This document shows positions 1 through 10,059 of a stretch of 64,000 nucleotides of DNA, in pieces. The notes below the pieces were generated by a model. That model saw nothing but the letters and a program-made list of their open reading frames with translations, was not told where the DNA came from and searched no databases. The position numbers and the translations under genes were made by a program. This DNA is from Microtetraspora malaysiensis (GTDB taxonomy: Bacteria; Actinomycetota; Actinomycetes; Streptosporangiales; Streptosporangiaceae), in NCBI RefSeq assembly GCF_001528665.1, contig NZ_BBYJ01000005.1, positions 124,001 to 188,000 on the forward strand. The letters are read 5' to 3'. The first letter of the stretch is position 1; the number at the start of each line of letters is the position of its first letter.

Positions 1-1131
1 CCGCGCGCCGACGAGTGTCGGAGTCGCTGCCTGTAGTGCTTCAGGCACATGGCCCCGGTGCTCCTCCGCGAGCTCCTTGAGCGTGCCGGCCAGAGCCTTC
101 GGCAACGGGTGACCGTCGAGGATCATGCGCGGATAGAGCCGCTCGGCCATGTCGATCGCAAAATCGTCGGTTACCGGATATCGCATCGCCAGCACCGCGC
201 ACCCCAGCCGGTCAGCGACCAGGTTCGCGAGGGCGCCGACCGGCCGGGGCGTCGGCTCGGCAGCAGCCGGGCGATCGCCGTGATCCGGCAGTTCGAGGAG
301 TCGGTGTTGTACACGCAGCGCCGCCGCAGCCGACCAGCACGCTGACAGCGTCACCAGCCTGACGCCGCGCGCCACCACGAGCAGTTCCACCAGGTCCCCT
401 GCCGAAACCCGGTCCGGTTGCCCGGTCTCCGTCTCCAGCAGCAGTTCACCCGGTGTCCCGTGGCCGGACACGTGGATCAGATCCCAGCCTTCGGGCCGCG
501 CCAGCACGGACTGGAGCCGCTTCCGGGTCACCCCGTACTGCAGACTGCGGAACTCGACCCCACGTCCCGTCCGAGCCGCCTCGGTGAAGCACGAGTACAG
601 TGCCTGCCGCTCGCGGCGCAGGTTCAGCGTCCTGCTGCTCTCCGGCAGGCTGAACAGCGCGAGAACCCGCACCGGCCGACCGCCGGGCGGCTCCGGCTCG
701 GCGACGGGAGGTTCCGCGCTGCGGTCGCACTGCCACACCAGTGTCACGTCCTGCAGGGCGAGGGGCCTTCCTCGCACCCACGCGAGCTCCAGCGGCAGGT
801 TCTGCAGGTACGGCGCATGCGTGGGCGCCACCACCTGGACCGCCGCGGGAGCCGCCGCGCACAGCGCGTCGGCGACCGGCCCGAGCACCTCCTCAACCAG
901 CCACTCCCCCACGTTGCGGACGATCTCCTCTTCCCGGATCTCGCGCAGGTCCGGGGCGGCATGGCGCTGGAGATATCCCAGGAGATCAAGGGACGCCTCA
1001 TACTGCGGGCTATCCGGGTTCAGGCGTACGTCGTGGCGGGCGAGTACTCGGCCGTCGGCCCCGGTCAGCGTCCAGCACCATCGGTCCAACCCCACGACAT
1101 CCTGGGCCTCGAGCCGGAGTGCGGCCATCAT
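1..1131 (-). CDS. CHAT-domain protease-like protein (cut by left edge)
   Basis: The minus-strand frame stays open from 1131 to the window edge (377 codons, C-terminus not seen). The C-terminal half carries the CHAT (caspase-HetF) signature: His220-V-S-G-His224-G ('HVSGHG') and, after a hydrophobic strand, Cys265 in 'LSACWS'. His224/Cys265 would be the catalytic dyad (family knowledge). The N-terminal ~150 residues are acidic and unrecognised. The start is the first of two adjacent ATGs (1131/1128), with a strong GGAGGGAG ribosome site upstream. It lies 24 bp after the TPR-like gene at 1156-2040, so the two are probably cotranscribed and act as partners. CHAT enzymes are typically released by a helical-repeat sensor; that role here is inference. 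Confidence 0.8.
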   Translation of the reverse strand, partial: MMAALRLEAQDVVGLDRWCWTLTGADGRVLARHDVRLNPDSPQYEASLDLLGYLQRHAAPDLREIREEEIVRNVGEWLVEEVLGPVADALCAAAPAAVQVVAPTHAPYLQNLPLELAWVRGRPLALQDVTLVWQCDRSAEPPVAEPEPPGGRPVRVLALFSLPESSRTLNLRRERQALYSCFTEAARTGRGVEFRSLQYGVTRKRLQSVLARPEGWDLIHVSGHGTPGELLLETETGQPDRVSAGDLVELLVVARGVRLVTLSACWSAAAALRVQHRLLELPDHGDRPAAAEPTPRPVGALANLVADRLGCAVLAMRYPVTDDFAIDMAERLYPRMILDGHPLPKALAGTLKELAEEHRGHVPEALQAATPTLVGAR

Positions 1132-1155
1132 CGCCACTCCCTCCTTCGTACGGTC

Positions 1156-2040
1156 TCAGATCCGGCGCCGACGCCAGCCTCGGCGCGGGCGAGCGTCCTC
1201 GAGCGCCCGGCCGAGCGCGCGGGCGTGCGCCGGGTACGCGATCCGCAGCATGCCCACCGCTTCGGCGAGTTGGGGATGAAGGTCGGCGATCGTCCCCTGG
1301 GGGAGCAGCGCGACGAGGTCCGCCGCCAGCTTGGCCACCTCTACCGCGCGAGCGGGCTCCTTGACCAAGCCAAGACAACGCAGGTACTGGATATAGGTGT
1401 TGGCGAGTTCCCACATGCTCAGCGGGTCGGCCGGCGTGAGCGCCTTCAGGCGTATCTCCACCGCACGCGAGGCCGACAGAGCGGGGACCATCGGGTCGAC
1501 ATCGGTTCCTCCGCGACGAAATCCGTCGACCAGACGGCTCATCTCGGCGACGGACAAATTGTGGTGCACCGTCCCCAGGGCCCGCAGCGAACGCGGGCCC
1601 GCGGCAATGCTGCGCCCGGCCTCGCGGGCGTCTTCGAGAATGCGGATGCGTTCACCGGGCTTGCCCGCCGCGGCGGCGGCTTCGGCGAGGTCGCATCGGG
1701 CCACGAGTAGCTCCGCCAGTACCGCATCGACGGCAGGGGACTGCTCGTCTGCGTTCCACCCCAGCGTCTTCCGGAACGCGGCGTCGAACTCGGCCACCGC
1801 CTGCCGTCCCGGCCCAAGGGCGCCTGCCGGGTCCCCCGCCGCATGCAGCGCCATGGACAACCGCCACAGCGCCCGGGCCAGGCCGCGGGTGGTGTCGACG
1901 TCCGGACGGTCCCGCAGCGCGTTGCGGTACCTGTCGGCCAGGGACTGCCACTGAGCGGGCGTCGGGCCTCTGCGCGCAGGATCGACCTGCTGCTCGCGGA
2001 GCTGCTCGTACTCGCGGTCCAACCGCTCTCGTGCCTCCAT
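1156..2040 (-). CDS. Alpha-helical TPR-like repeat protein, partner of CHAT protein
   Basis: 294 residues, almost wholly predicted helix, rich in Ala/Arg/Leu, with helix pairs of about 35-40 residues that resemble tetratricopeptide repeats (for example the 'ARALWRLSMALHAAG' and 'ELANTYIQYLRCLG' segments). No catalytic motif is visible. ATG at 2040 is preferred over an in-frame GTG at 2052, because GAGGAG ends 5 nt before the ATG and overlaps the GTG. It precedes the CHAT gene by 24 bp. TPR proteins in such pairs usually sense a trigger and hold the protease (family knowledge); no direct evidence here. The repeat assignment is by eye. Confidence 0.6.
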   Translation of the reverse strand: MEARERLDREYEQLREQQVDPARRGPTPAQWQSLADRYRNALRDRPDVDTTRGLARALWRLSMALHAAGDPAGALGPGRQAVAEFDAAFRKTLGWNADEQSPAVDAVLAELLVARCDLAEAAAAAGKPGERIRILEDAREAGRSIAAGPRSLRALGTVHHNLSVAEMSRLVDGFRRGGTDVDPMVPALSASRAVEIRLKALTPADPLSMWELANTYIQYLRCLGLVKEPARAVEVAKLAADLVALLPQGTIADLHPQLAEAVGMLRIAYPAHARALGRALEDARPRRGWRRRRI

Positions 2041-2064: not shown

Positions 2065-2394
2065 TCAGTTCTCCGCCTGACCCCTCGGCAGCGGCCTACG
2101 GCAGCGTCTTCCAGCACCTCGGCCCGCCCCAACGCTGTCTCCCACAGCTCGGTCGGCGCGGTAAACACCCCGCGGCACCGCGAGCGGGTCCTCCAGGAAC
2201 AACCTGATGTTGAACAACCTGATGTACCGCACGGTTGTCAGTTGTATCGCGAACCCCAGTTGGTGCGACTTTGTCCGGCGCAGCGCGACCAGGTCCCGGT
2301 CCACGTCGTCTAGGTAGAAAAATCGTTCCAGCTCCAACCGCATCGGCACCTTGGCGAAGCTCCCGTACGCTGGCTCATTGGTCAGAAACTCCAC
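2065..2394 (-). pseudogene. Tn3-family transposase N-terminal remnant (DUF4158)
   Basis: The first ~75 codons (2394 down to about 2170) match the start of Tn3-family transposases. They begin 'MEFLT', then 'FFYLDDVDRDLVALRR' and 'QLGFAIQLTTVRY', the DUF4158 landmarks. After 'FLEDP' the similarity stops and the frame runs into unrelated sequence. An intact Tn3 transposase has about 1000 residues, so this is a stub of a lost transposon, lying 24 bp upstream of the TPR-like gene. A second, different DUF4158 piece lies at 56226-56454. Confidence 0.75.
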
Positions 2395-8754: not shown

Positions 8755-10059
8755 GTGGATCGACGCAGACGGGTGCCGCGCACCGACACCGTGCTGGCCG
8801 CACCGGAACTGGTCGCGGCGCAGGGACGCCTCGGGAGAGCGGCCGTCAAGGAGGCCGTCGCCGCCGCCCAGCGGCGCGTACGGCACGGCGAGCTGAGCCC
8901 GGACGACGTCGTCCGGGCGGCGGTCGCGGCGCTGCCCGCGCGCGCCGCCGCCCTGCGCCCGGTGATCAACGCTACCGGCGTGCTGTTGCACACCAACCTC
9001 GGCCGGGCGCCGCTGTCGGCGGCGGCGATCGAGGCGGTGACGGCGGCGGCGGGGGCCGCCGACGTGGAGTTCGACCTCGCCACCGGCAGGCGGGCCCGGC
9101 GGGGACGGGACGCGCTCGACGCGCTGGCGCGGGCGGTCCCCGCCGCCGAGGACGCGCACGTCGTCAACAACAACGCCGCCGCGCTCATCCTCGCCGCCAC
9201 CGCGCTGGCCCGGGGGCGCGAGATCGTGGTCAGCCGCGGCGAACTGGTCGAGATCGGGGACGGCTTCCGGATCCCCGACCTGCTGGTCTCGACGGGGGCG
9301 CGGCTGCGCGAGGTCGGCACCACGAACCGGACCTCGCGCGAGGACTACGCCGCGGCGCTCGGCCCGGACACCGGGTTCGTGCTCAAGGTGCACCCGTCGA
9401 ACTACCGGATCGAGGGGTTCACCGGTGCCGCGGGCGTCGCCGAGCTGGCCGGGCTCGGCGTGCCCGTCGTGGCCGACGTCGGCTCCGGCCTGCTCCGCCC
9501 CGAGCCGCTGCTGCCGGACGAGCCGGACGCCGCGACCGCGCTCGGCTCCGGCGCCGACCTGGTCACGGCCAGCGGCGACAAACTGCTCGGCGGCCCGCAG
9601 GCCGGGCTGCTGCTCGGCCGCCGCGCCCTGGTCGAGCGGTGCCGGCGGCACCCGCTCGCCCGCGCCCTGCGCGTGGACAAGCTCACCCTGGCCGCGCTGG
9701 AGGCCACCCTGCGCGGCCCCGCGACACCGGTCGCCGAGGCGCTGCGCGCCGACCCGGAGGAGCTGGCCGCCCGCGCGGCGGCCCTCGCGGGCACGCTCGC
9801 CCGGGCCGGCCTCGACGCGCGCGCCGTGCCCAGCGCGGCGGCCGTGGGCGGCGGCGGAGCGCCCGGCATCACACTGCCGAGCGCGGCGGTGAGCCTGCCC
9901 GTACGGCTCGCCGCGCCGCTGCGCACCGGCGAGCCGCCCGTCGTCGGCCGGATCGAGGGCGGGCGGCTCCTCCTCGACCTGCGCGCCGTACCGGCGGCGC
10001 GGGACGGCGACGTGGCGCGGGCCGCGCTGGCCGCGCACGCGGCTCCGGAGGGGGAGTGA
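8755..10059 (+). CDS. selA: L-seryl-tRNA(Sec) selenium transferase SelA
   Basis: 434 residues (family 430-465). PLP-dependent fold with the lysine of the cofactor site at about residue 276 ('ASGDKLLGGPQAG') and strong family landmarks 'RPVINATGVLLHTNLGRAPLS' and 'GTTNRT'. It converts Ser-tRNA(Sec) to Sec-tRNA(Sec) using selenophosphate. Start GTG 8755 has no ribosome site, but TATGTT ends 6 nt before it, which fits leaderless transcription. selB starts within its stop codon (TGATG). Neither selC (tRNA-Sec), selD nor a clear selenoprotein gene is in the window, so these must lie elsewhere. Confidence 0.95.
   Translation: MDRRRRVPRTDTVLAAPELVAAQGRLGRAAVKEAVAAAQRRVRHGELSPDDVVRAAVAALPARAAALRPVINATGVLLHTNLGRAPLSAAAIEAVTAAAGAADVEFDLATGRRARRGRDALDALARAVPAAEDAHVVNNNAAALILAATALARGREIVVSRGELVEIGDGFRIPDLLVSTGARLREVGTTNRTSREDYAAALGPDTGFVLKVHPSNYRIEGFTGAAGVAELAGLGVPVVADVGSGLLRPEPLLPDEPDAATALGSGADLVTASGDKLLGGPQAGLLLGRRALVERCRRHPLARALRVDKLTLAALEATLRGPATPVAEALRADPEELAARAAALAGTLARAGLDARAVPSAAAVGGGGAPGITLPSAAVSLPVRLAAPLRTGEPPVVGRIEGGRLLLDLRAVPAARDGDVARAALAAHAAPEGE

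Follow-up and report, generated by a model that had tools for sequence, protein, structure and literature searches.

A caspase-clan protease linked to an overlapping mini-protein/three-TM gene pair in actinobacteria: a candidate protease-controlled membrane-effector system

A caspase-clan protease of Microtetraspora malaysiensis is genetically tied to a pair of overlapping genes that encode a mini-protein and a membrane protein with, on the best reading of the sequences, three transmembrane (TM) segments. The pair keeps company with very different caspase-like proteases in many actinobacteria of the soil, and it looks like an output module, so far unrecognised, of immune or self-destruct systems in bacteria. 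We give somewhat less than an even chance to the reading that the locus is a protease-controlled, or protease-gated, membrane-effector system. The targets of bacterial caspase-fold proteases with NLR-like sensors are known in few cases, and a constant small pair that tracks several protease architectures is a concrete candidate for both substrate and effector. If true, the reading would give bacterial caspases a non-gasdermin route to killing through the membrane. It would also give annotators two new protein families that were missed by the libraries used, one of them only about 50 residues long.

The window, the whole stretch of 64,000 nucleotides that was analysed, corresponds to G000:C5:124001-188000 in a genome of 8.82 Mb and 53 contigs. 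The sequence to the left of base 1 was read from the same genome as L003, in which the position equals the window position plus 18000. The features of the locus are the following:

Window 1..1131, minus strand: the in-window part of the gene of P0002, a CHAT-NB-ARC/NACHT-helical protease (ORF translation and Pfam).
Window 1156..2040, minus strand: P0001, a 294-aa alpha-helical TPR/PPR-like accessory protein (translation; no Pfam, NCBIfam or PADLOC family).
Window 2065..2394, minus strand: N-terminal fragment of a Tn3-type transposase (DUF4158), a 109-aa ORF (Pfam).
L003:14660-14812, extrapolated to -3340 to -3188 and outside the window, minus strand: 50-aa mini-protein gene (50-codon ORF).
L003:14007-14663, extrapolated to -3993 to -3337 and outside the window, minus strand: 218-aa three-TM protein gene (ORF and hydropathy).

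The earlier note had described a TPR-like gene followed at 24 bp by a CHAT protease with intact His224 and Cys265, and had read them as a sensor-protease protein divided between two genes. The spacing is real. The start codon of P0002 is the ATG at window position 1131 or the GTG at 1137, which puts it 24 or 18 bp, respectively, after the stop of the 294-aa ORF, a gene of the same strand. The CHAT assignment also holds, since Pfam PF12770 matches residues 73-361 (E 3.9e-10, 40.1 bits vs a cut-off of 24), and His224 and Cys265 (1423-aa numbering) are both present and invariant in three orthologues. By eye, the catalytic His and Cys are retained in all nine aligned CHAT domains. The split reading fails because the window edge cuts the CHAT gene. 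The frame runs to an extrapolated coordinate of about -3140, and the complete gene (L003:14860-19131) encodes 1423 aa in which CHAT, NB-ARC/NACHT and a helical C-terminus form a single chain. A separate sensor and protease are thus ruled out.

The NTPase of P0002 occupies residues 448-649 and is matched by the Pfam models NB-ARC (E 1.1e-7, 31.8 bits vs 23.5) and NACHT (28.2 bits vs 26.7), with a P-loop of GMPGVGKT. When a profile of the three orthologues was compared with solved structures, the best relative of the NTPase region was Apaf-1 (E 3.3e-4); a phmmer search of P0002 against the PDB gave no match. Pfam lists no named family and no TPR family in the C-terminal region, and the related L020 and L026 proteins have clear TPRs. 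None of the PADLOC 2.0.0 models matched at the locus, the only similarity being to PDC-S73, with 23 P-loop residues aligned at E 0.023. By its domains, P0002 is a caspase-clan protease with an NLR-like STAND NTPase in a conflict/death-type architecture, and its proteolytic activity is predicted. The placement among the sensor-proteases of conflict and death systems is therefore kept as regards the caspase-clan protease and the death-type architecture, and only its two-gene form is dropped.

P0001 matches zero Pfam and zero NCBIfam families. A three-sequence profile finds a weak designed-PPR match in the PDB (E 1.4e-4) over about 30 residues, and on this weak PPR-like stretch the protein may be called TPR-like. 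A P0001-type protein is found by phmmer at 3 of 25 related loci, its homologues lying only beside the close relatives L015 and L016. This rules out a general partner, and on this distribution P0001 is a local accessory. The Tn3 remnant was correctly recognised beside the two genes; it is a truncated transposase start (DUF4158, E 5.5e-11, 53 aligned residues) and a passive neighbour outside the system. Elsewhere in the window, the frame at 8755-10059, read by eye, presumably encodes the selenocysteine synthase SelA.

The expectation that the informative genes lie beyond the left edge was borne out, since the sequence left of base 1 holds the genes of the mini-protein and the three-TM protein. 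On one strand, the stop of P0002 is followed by 47 nt, the mini-protein ORF and then the TM gene, which overlaps the mini-protein ORF by 4 nt (ATGA). The mini-proteins match no Pfam or NCBIfam family and the TM proteins no Pfam family; P0003 and P0004 gave no NCBIfam or PADLOC match. By gene content across the loci, it is this pair that makes up the conserved partners of the protease, and not the TPR-like gene. Between the TM gene and the gene of an HTH_20 regulator, three head-to-tail units of 91 bp, 98% alike, were observed at L003:13512-13788 (extrapolated to -4488 to -4212).

The mini-protein ORF is real, because synonymous change per site exceeds non-synonymous change. The values are 0.435 vs 0.116 for P0004-L015, 0.415 vs 0.111 for L024-L025 and 0.209 vs 0.090 for L013-L036. 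Five Micromonospora copies show the excess in 7 of 10 pairs; it is not clear in L026-L027, where changes are very few, nor in L026-L028 and L027-L028. The motif ATACT lies 11-12 nt ahead of the mini-protein start in 20 of 34 loci, against a background of 0.14% per 20-nt window, the related loci not being independent. It is probably the -10 element of a leaderless promoter. The copy belonging to the window has a Shine-Dalgarno-like sequence instead.

A search for the TM protein covered 200 genomes of the order and gave five matches, one of them (G140) weak. A CHAT-STAND orthologue adjoins the TM homologue in G070 (convergent) and G165 (divergent), and a receiver-LuxR-CHAT protein lies upstream of it in G177; in all three genomes a 55-64-aa ORF with the mini-protein motif is found upstream of the TM gene. 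A TM-first survey, in which a four-sequence TM alignment was compared with 84,980 species genomes, gave 22 loci, whose hosts we take from their genus names to be all actinobacteria. The mini-protein ORF stands immediately upstream of the TM gene in every one of the 22. Together with G000, G070 and G177 these make 25 non-redundant rows, G165 being the same contig as L019. The protease adjoining the pair is CHAT in 23 rows and a C14 caspase in one (L033); in the remaining row (L034) the pair is present and no CHAT or C14 was found within 10 kb. In L033 one additional small gene separates the caspase from the mini-protein, and a TIR-domain protein is encoded nearby. The TIR-domain proteins at L033:6045-8189 and L096:2894-5266, one of them a TIR-STAND-TPR protein, are encoded next to a caspase or CHAT locus, as is also seen in defence clusters.

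A peptide-first survey used the mini-protein profile alone and is independent of the TM search. Among 295 genomes of one genus (Streptomyces-type) 11 matched, 10 of them strongly (E <= 6.3e-7), and all 10 strong matches have adjacent TM and CHAT genes; two are L018 and L021 again. Among 200 genomes of the window's order 8 matched, 6 strongly (E < 1e-10), four being known loci. The two remaining strong matches are in G103, where the mini-protein directly follows CHAT and a TM gene was not found, and in G064 (L095), where it precedes an NB-ARC-TPR gene without CHAT in Pfam. Taken together, the 16 strong matches are accompanied by TM and CHAT in 14 cases and by CHAT in 15. Because G103 pairs the mini-protein with CHAT where no TM gene was found, the link of the mini-protein is not to the TM protein alone but also to the protease. 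In L095 (7732-11362) the mini-protein is followed by an NB-ARC-TPR protein with an unnamed N-terminus of 430 aa, an arrangement that suggests that STAND proteins other than caspases may also use the mini-protein.

L012 (the same as L019), L108 (L021) and L109 (L018) were dropped as repeat contigs before the counts were made. Distant TM matches in G140/L014 (E 7e-4), G200/L038 and G488/L039 have no mini-protein by eye, and a weak one in G306/L040 (E 2e-4) lies inside a long frame. The mini-protein profile also matched weakly within long frames (370-2431 residues) of L042, L043, L044, L093, L094 and L107. The first three were rejected as mini-proteins, their matches being read as beta-propeller-like repeats in long frames, of the type WAVG..G.I.YDG..W. 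There may be a resemblance between the mini-protein core and a single hairpin of a propeller blade of this type.

The combined set comprises 34 non-redundant actinobacterial loci (the 25 rows, L087 and L110-L117). A caspase-clan protease adjoins the pair in 33 of them, and the mini-protein and TM genes overlap in all 34, the overlap being 8 nt in L022 and L031 and 4 nt in the other 32. Thirty of the 4-nt overlaps were found by script, and those of L113 (7708-7711) and L114 (7961-7964) were taken from ORF coordinates. The protease can stand upstream, downstream, divergent or convergent, and its adjacency is maintained; L113-L117, five of the ten strong Streptomyces-type matches, have mini-protein, TM and CHAT in that order on one strand and represent the fourth arrangement. 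In the window's own genome CHAT has just two matches in 8.8 Mb, so the adjacency of protease and pair is not due to chance. Genes were called with a purpose-built program, and the HMMs for CHAT, TM and mini-protein were likewise built for the analysis; the CHAT HMM was made from 9 of the loci and matches those by construction. Pfam supports P0002, CHAT in L013, L020, L022, L026, L032, L035, L036, L087 and 10 more loci, and C14 in L033, while the CHAT call comes from the purpose-built HMM alone in L011, L019, L027-L029 and L110-L117. Negative protease-to-peptide distances stem from over-long 5' ORF ends.

The proteases that adjoin the pair differ in architecture. CHAT-STAND-TPR proteins are found in L020 and L026, CHAT-STAND with unnamed repeats in P0002, a C-terminal CHAT after TPRs in L032, L035 and L087, receiver-LuxR-CHAT in L013 and L036, and a separate C14 caspase in L033. 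Since the pair is constant and the protease variable, they are most simply read as a sensor-switch (the protease) and its output (the pair). Adjacency alone carries no direction, and the C-terminal tails of several TM proteins are rich in Pro, Ser and Thr and would lie outside the cell if the topology is read correctly. It could thus be argued that the input comes from the TM protein, which would act as a membrane sensor or anchor and signal via the mini-protein to a protease with its substrate elsewhere. We regard this as rather unlikely, since the proteases bring their own variable input modules (STAND/TPR, receiver-LuxR, TPR-S) to a constant pair, and a constant sensor added to variable ones is less economical.

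A CHAT-region match is present in 25 of the 200 genomes, from which ten further CHAT-STAND loci were fetched. None of the ten has the mini-protein or the three-TM protein of the cassette, so the protease can work without the pair. Another multi-TM protein is encoded directly downstream of the cassette-less CHAT-STAND gene in three of these loci and divergently in a fourth, and L084 has a short holin-like multi-TM neighbour. The four are located as follows:

L081:11004-11579: multi-TM protein, directly downstream.
L082:4412-4987: multi-TM protein, directly downstream.
L083:4418-4975: multi-TM protein, directly downstream.
L085:8796-9326: multi-TM protein, divergent.

If the membrane partner can be exchanged as an output, such neighbours are to be expected, and these four are perhaps an alternative membrane output.

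The distribution also bears on the purpose of the triad. Rather than death or defence, it could serve development or stress signalling in mycelial actinobacteria, as the receiver-LuxR-CHAT protein in two loci and the named hosts, all of which we take to be actinobacteria, would suggest. We consider this improbable because the occurrence is patchy: the TM protein is present in 5 of the 200 genomes of the order (one distant) and the mini-protein in 11 of the 295 of one genus. Moreover, the TM search found a copy on a plasmid of Streptomyces europaeiscabiei (NZ_CP107864), with the mini-protein annotated as hypothetical WP_327749981.1, a convergent TPR-CHAT gene and two integrase genes in the stretch, which is unlike a core developmental pathway. 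The TM family was not found in phages and viral contigs.

In the 25-row alignment of the mini-proteins Gly23 and Trp26 are invariant, and R11, G16, D22 and a basic residue at position 45 are nearly so. All 36 mini-proteins examined retain the Trp and, at one column of the tail, a basic residue, which mostly follows hydrophobic residues. What lies past it is short, variable and acidic, and the conserved part is the preceding beta core. The predicted structure has three short strands (14-16, 22-25 and 30-32) with pLDDT 86-88 for residues 11-30; overall pLDDT is 72 and pTM 0.40, the ends and tail being of lower confidence. From this model the fold is WW-sized, and nothing beyond size can be claimed. 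The small size and the conserved basic residue ahead of a variable acidic tail would also suit a precursor from which the protease frees a C-terminal toxin or signal peptide, with the TM protein as exporter or immunity protein. A peptide release model has been proposed for the FxSxx-type peptides of VMAP-ternary systems in the excerpts available of PMC7159879. In the FxSxx family the C-terminal peptide is the more conserved part, the reverse of the mini-protein, in which conservation lies in the beta core before the basic residue, and this makes a precursor very improbable.

The TM protein of the orthologue L015, modelled from a 22-row alignment, is all-helical, without strands, at a mean pLDDT of 88. 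Its helices span 21-54, 61-88, 126-145 and 149-215, the last having 67 residues and ending in the third hydrophobic segment. Hydropathy gives 1-4 windows per member, mostly 3. The invariant L108/R109 fall in region 89-125, which links TM2 to the long helices. SLATT-type membrane effectors were considered as a lead; the SLATT Pfam model was absent among matches at E <= 0.1 for 25 TM members, which may still be distant relatives. Foldseek of the model against the PDB gave no match at E <= 0.001 (best 0.09), and VIA-align scored best (Z 9.9) with helical bundles that are unrelated, a value for which the tool itself advises caution; no known pore was matched. Region 89-125 could itself be the cut site, and the gene overlap in every locus suits a chaperone or antidote, so the TM protein may be the substrate and the mini-protein merely its co-translated chaperone or antidote. 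We hold this to be unlikely, because a pure TM chaperone leaves unexplained the mini-protein by a CHAT gene in G103, where no TM gene was found, and that by a STAND-TPR gene in G064.

In the preferred reading, input comes through the protease, which varies, and output through the mini-protein/TM pair, which is constant. The STAND/repeat part of the protease would sense a trigger, most likely a phage or other invader, or damage, and would then oligomerise and activate the CHAT protease. Production of the mini-protein would keep pace with that of the TM protein, and the mini-protein would be both bridge and gate between protease and TM protein. Once the mini-protein is cut, most simply at or near the conserved tail Arg/Lys, or displaced, the TM protein would be freed, oligomerise and permeabilise or depolarise the membrane, so that the cell is stopped or killed. 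The Arg/Lys need not be P1, since three Craspases cut at L|D, M|K and A|S, which indicates that CHAT sites can be non-conserved (PMC11106740, available in part). It may instead be a docking residue, because L095 keeps it without a detectable CHAT. A wider version is possible and rather doubtful: the mini-protein and the three-TM protein would be a shared, unnamed actinobacterial executioner module plugged into CHAT-STAND, TPR-CHAT, receiver-LuxR-CHAT and C14 proteins, in which any sensor cuts the ~50-residue gate at the basic residue, a form of non-gasdermin bacterial pyroptosis.

The locus is set apart from the bacterial gasdermins and from Craspase-Csx30, and is assigned to neither, because its TM protein is all-helical and its partner tiny. 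The gasdermin fold is alpha/beta, and the L015 model has helices only, with three TM segments. Bacterial gasdermin systems (bGSDM and protease) are alike in that a protease stands beside the membrane-attacking protein it switches on, a logic that is proposed here; bGSDM differs in being inhibited by its own C-terminal part, where here there is a separate mini-protein (excerpts of PMC10989679). Craspase (TPR-CHAT/Csx29 with Csx30) likewise has a CHAT protease with a dedicated partner whose cleavage starts the response. On the other hand, its CHAT is activated through an RNA-guided Cas complex, in place of a STAND NTPase within the protease itself, and Csx30 is larger, being cut at residue 434 in one case, than the partner of about 50 aa described here (PMC11106740, in the same excerpts). 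None of the Pfam-scanned neighbours of the locus was named as a Cas protein.

A description of the mini-protein/TM pair was not found in the literature searched, which was available in part, and this is no proof of its absence in print. The nearest architectures are the NLR/apoptosome-like STAND-caspase proteins of the AP-ATPase clade, in which a STAND NTPase is joined to a caspase-fold protease and repeats; the descriptions in the available parts of PMC7159879 and PMC8195603 cover EACC, EAD, VMAP and FxSxx modules, with no mini-protein/three-TM pair among them. EACC2-caspase proteins with C-terminal multi-TM regions also join a caspase domain to a possible membrane-pore output, according to the excerpts of PMC8195603. 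There the caspase and the TM region form one protein, whereas here they are encoded by separate genes with a mini-protein between them.
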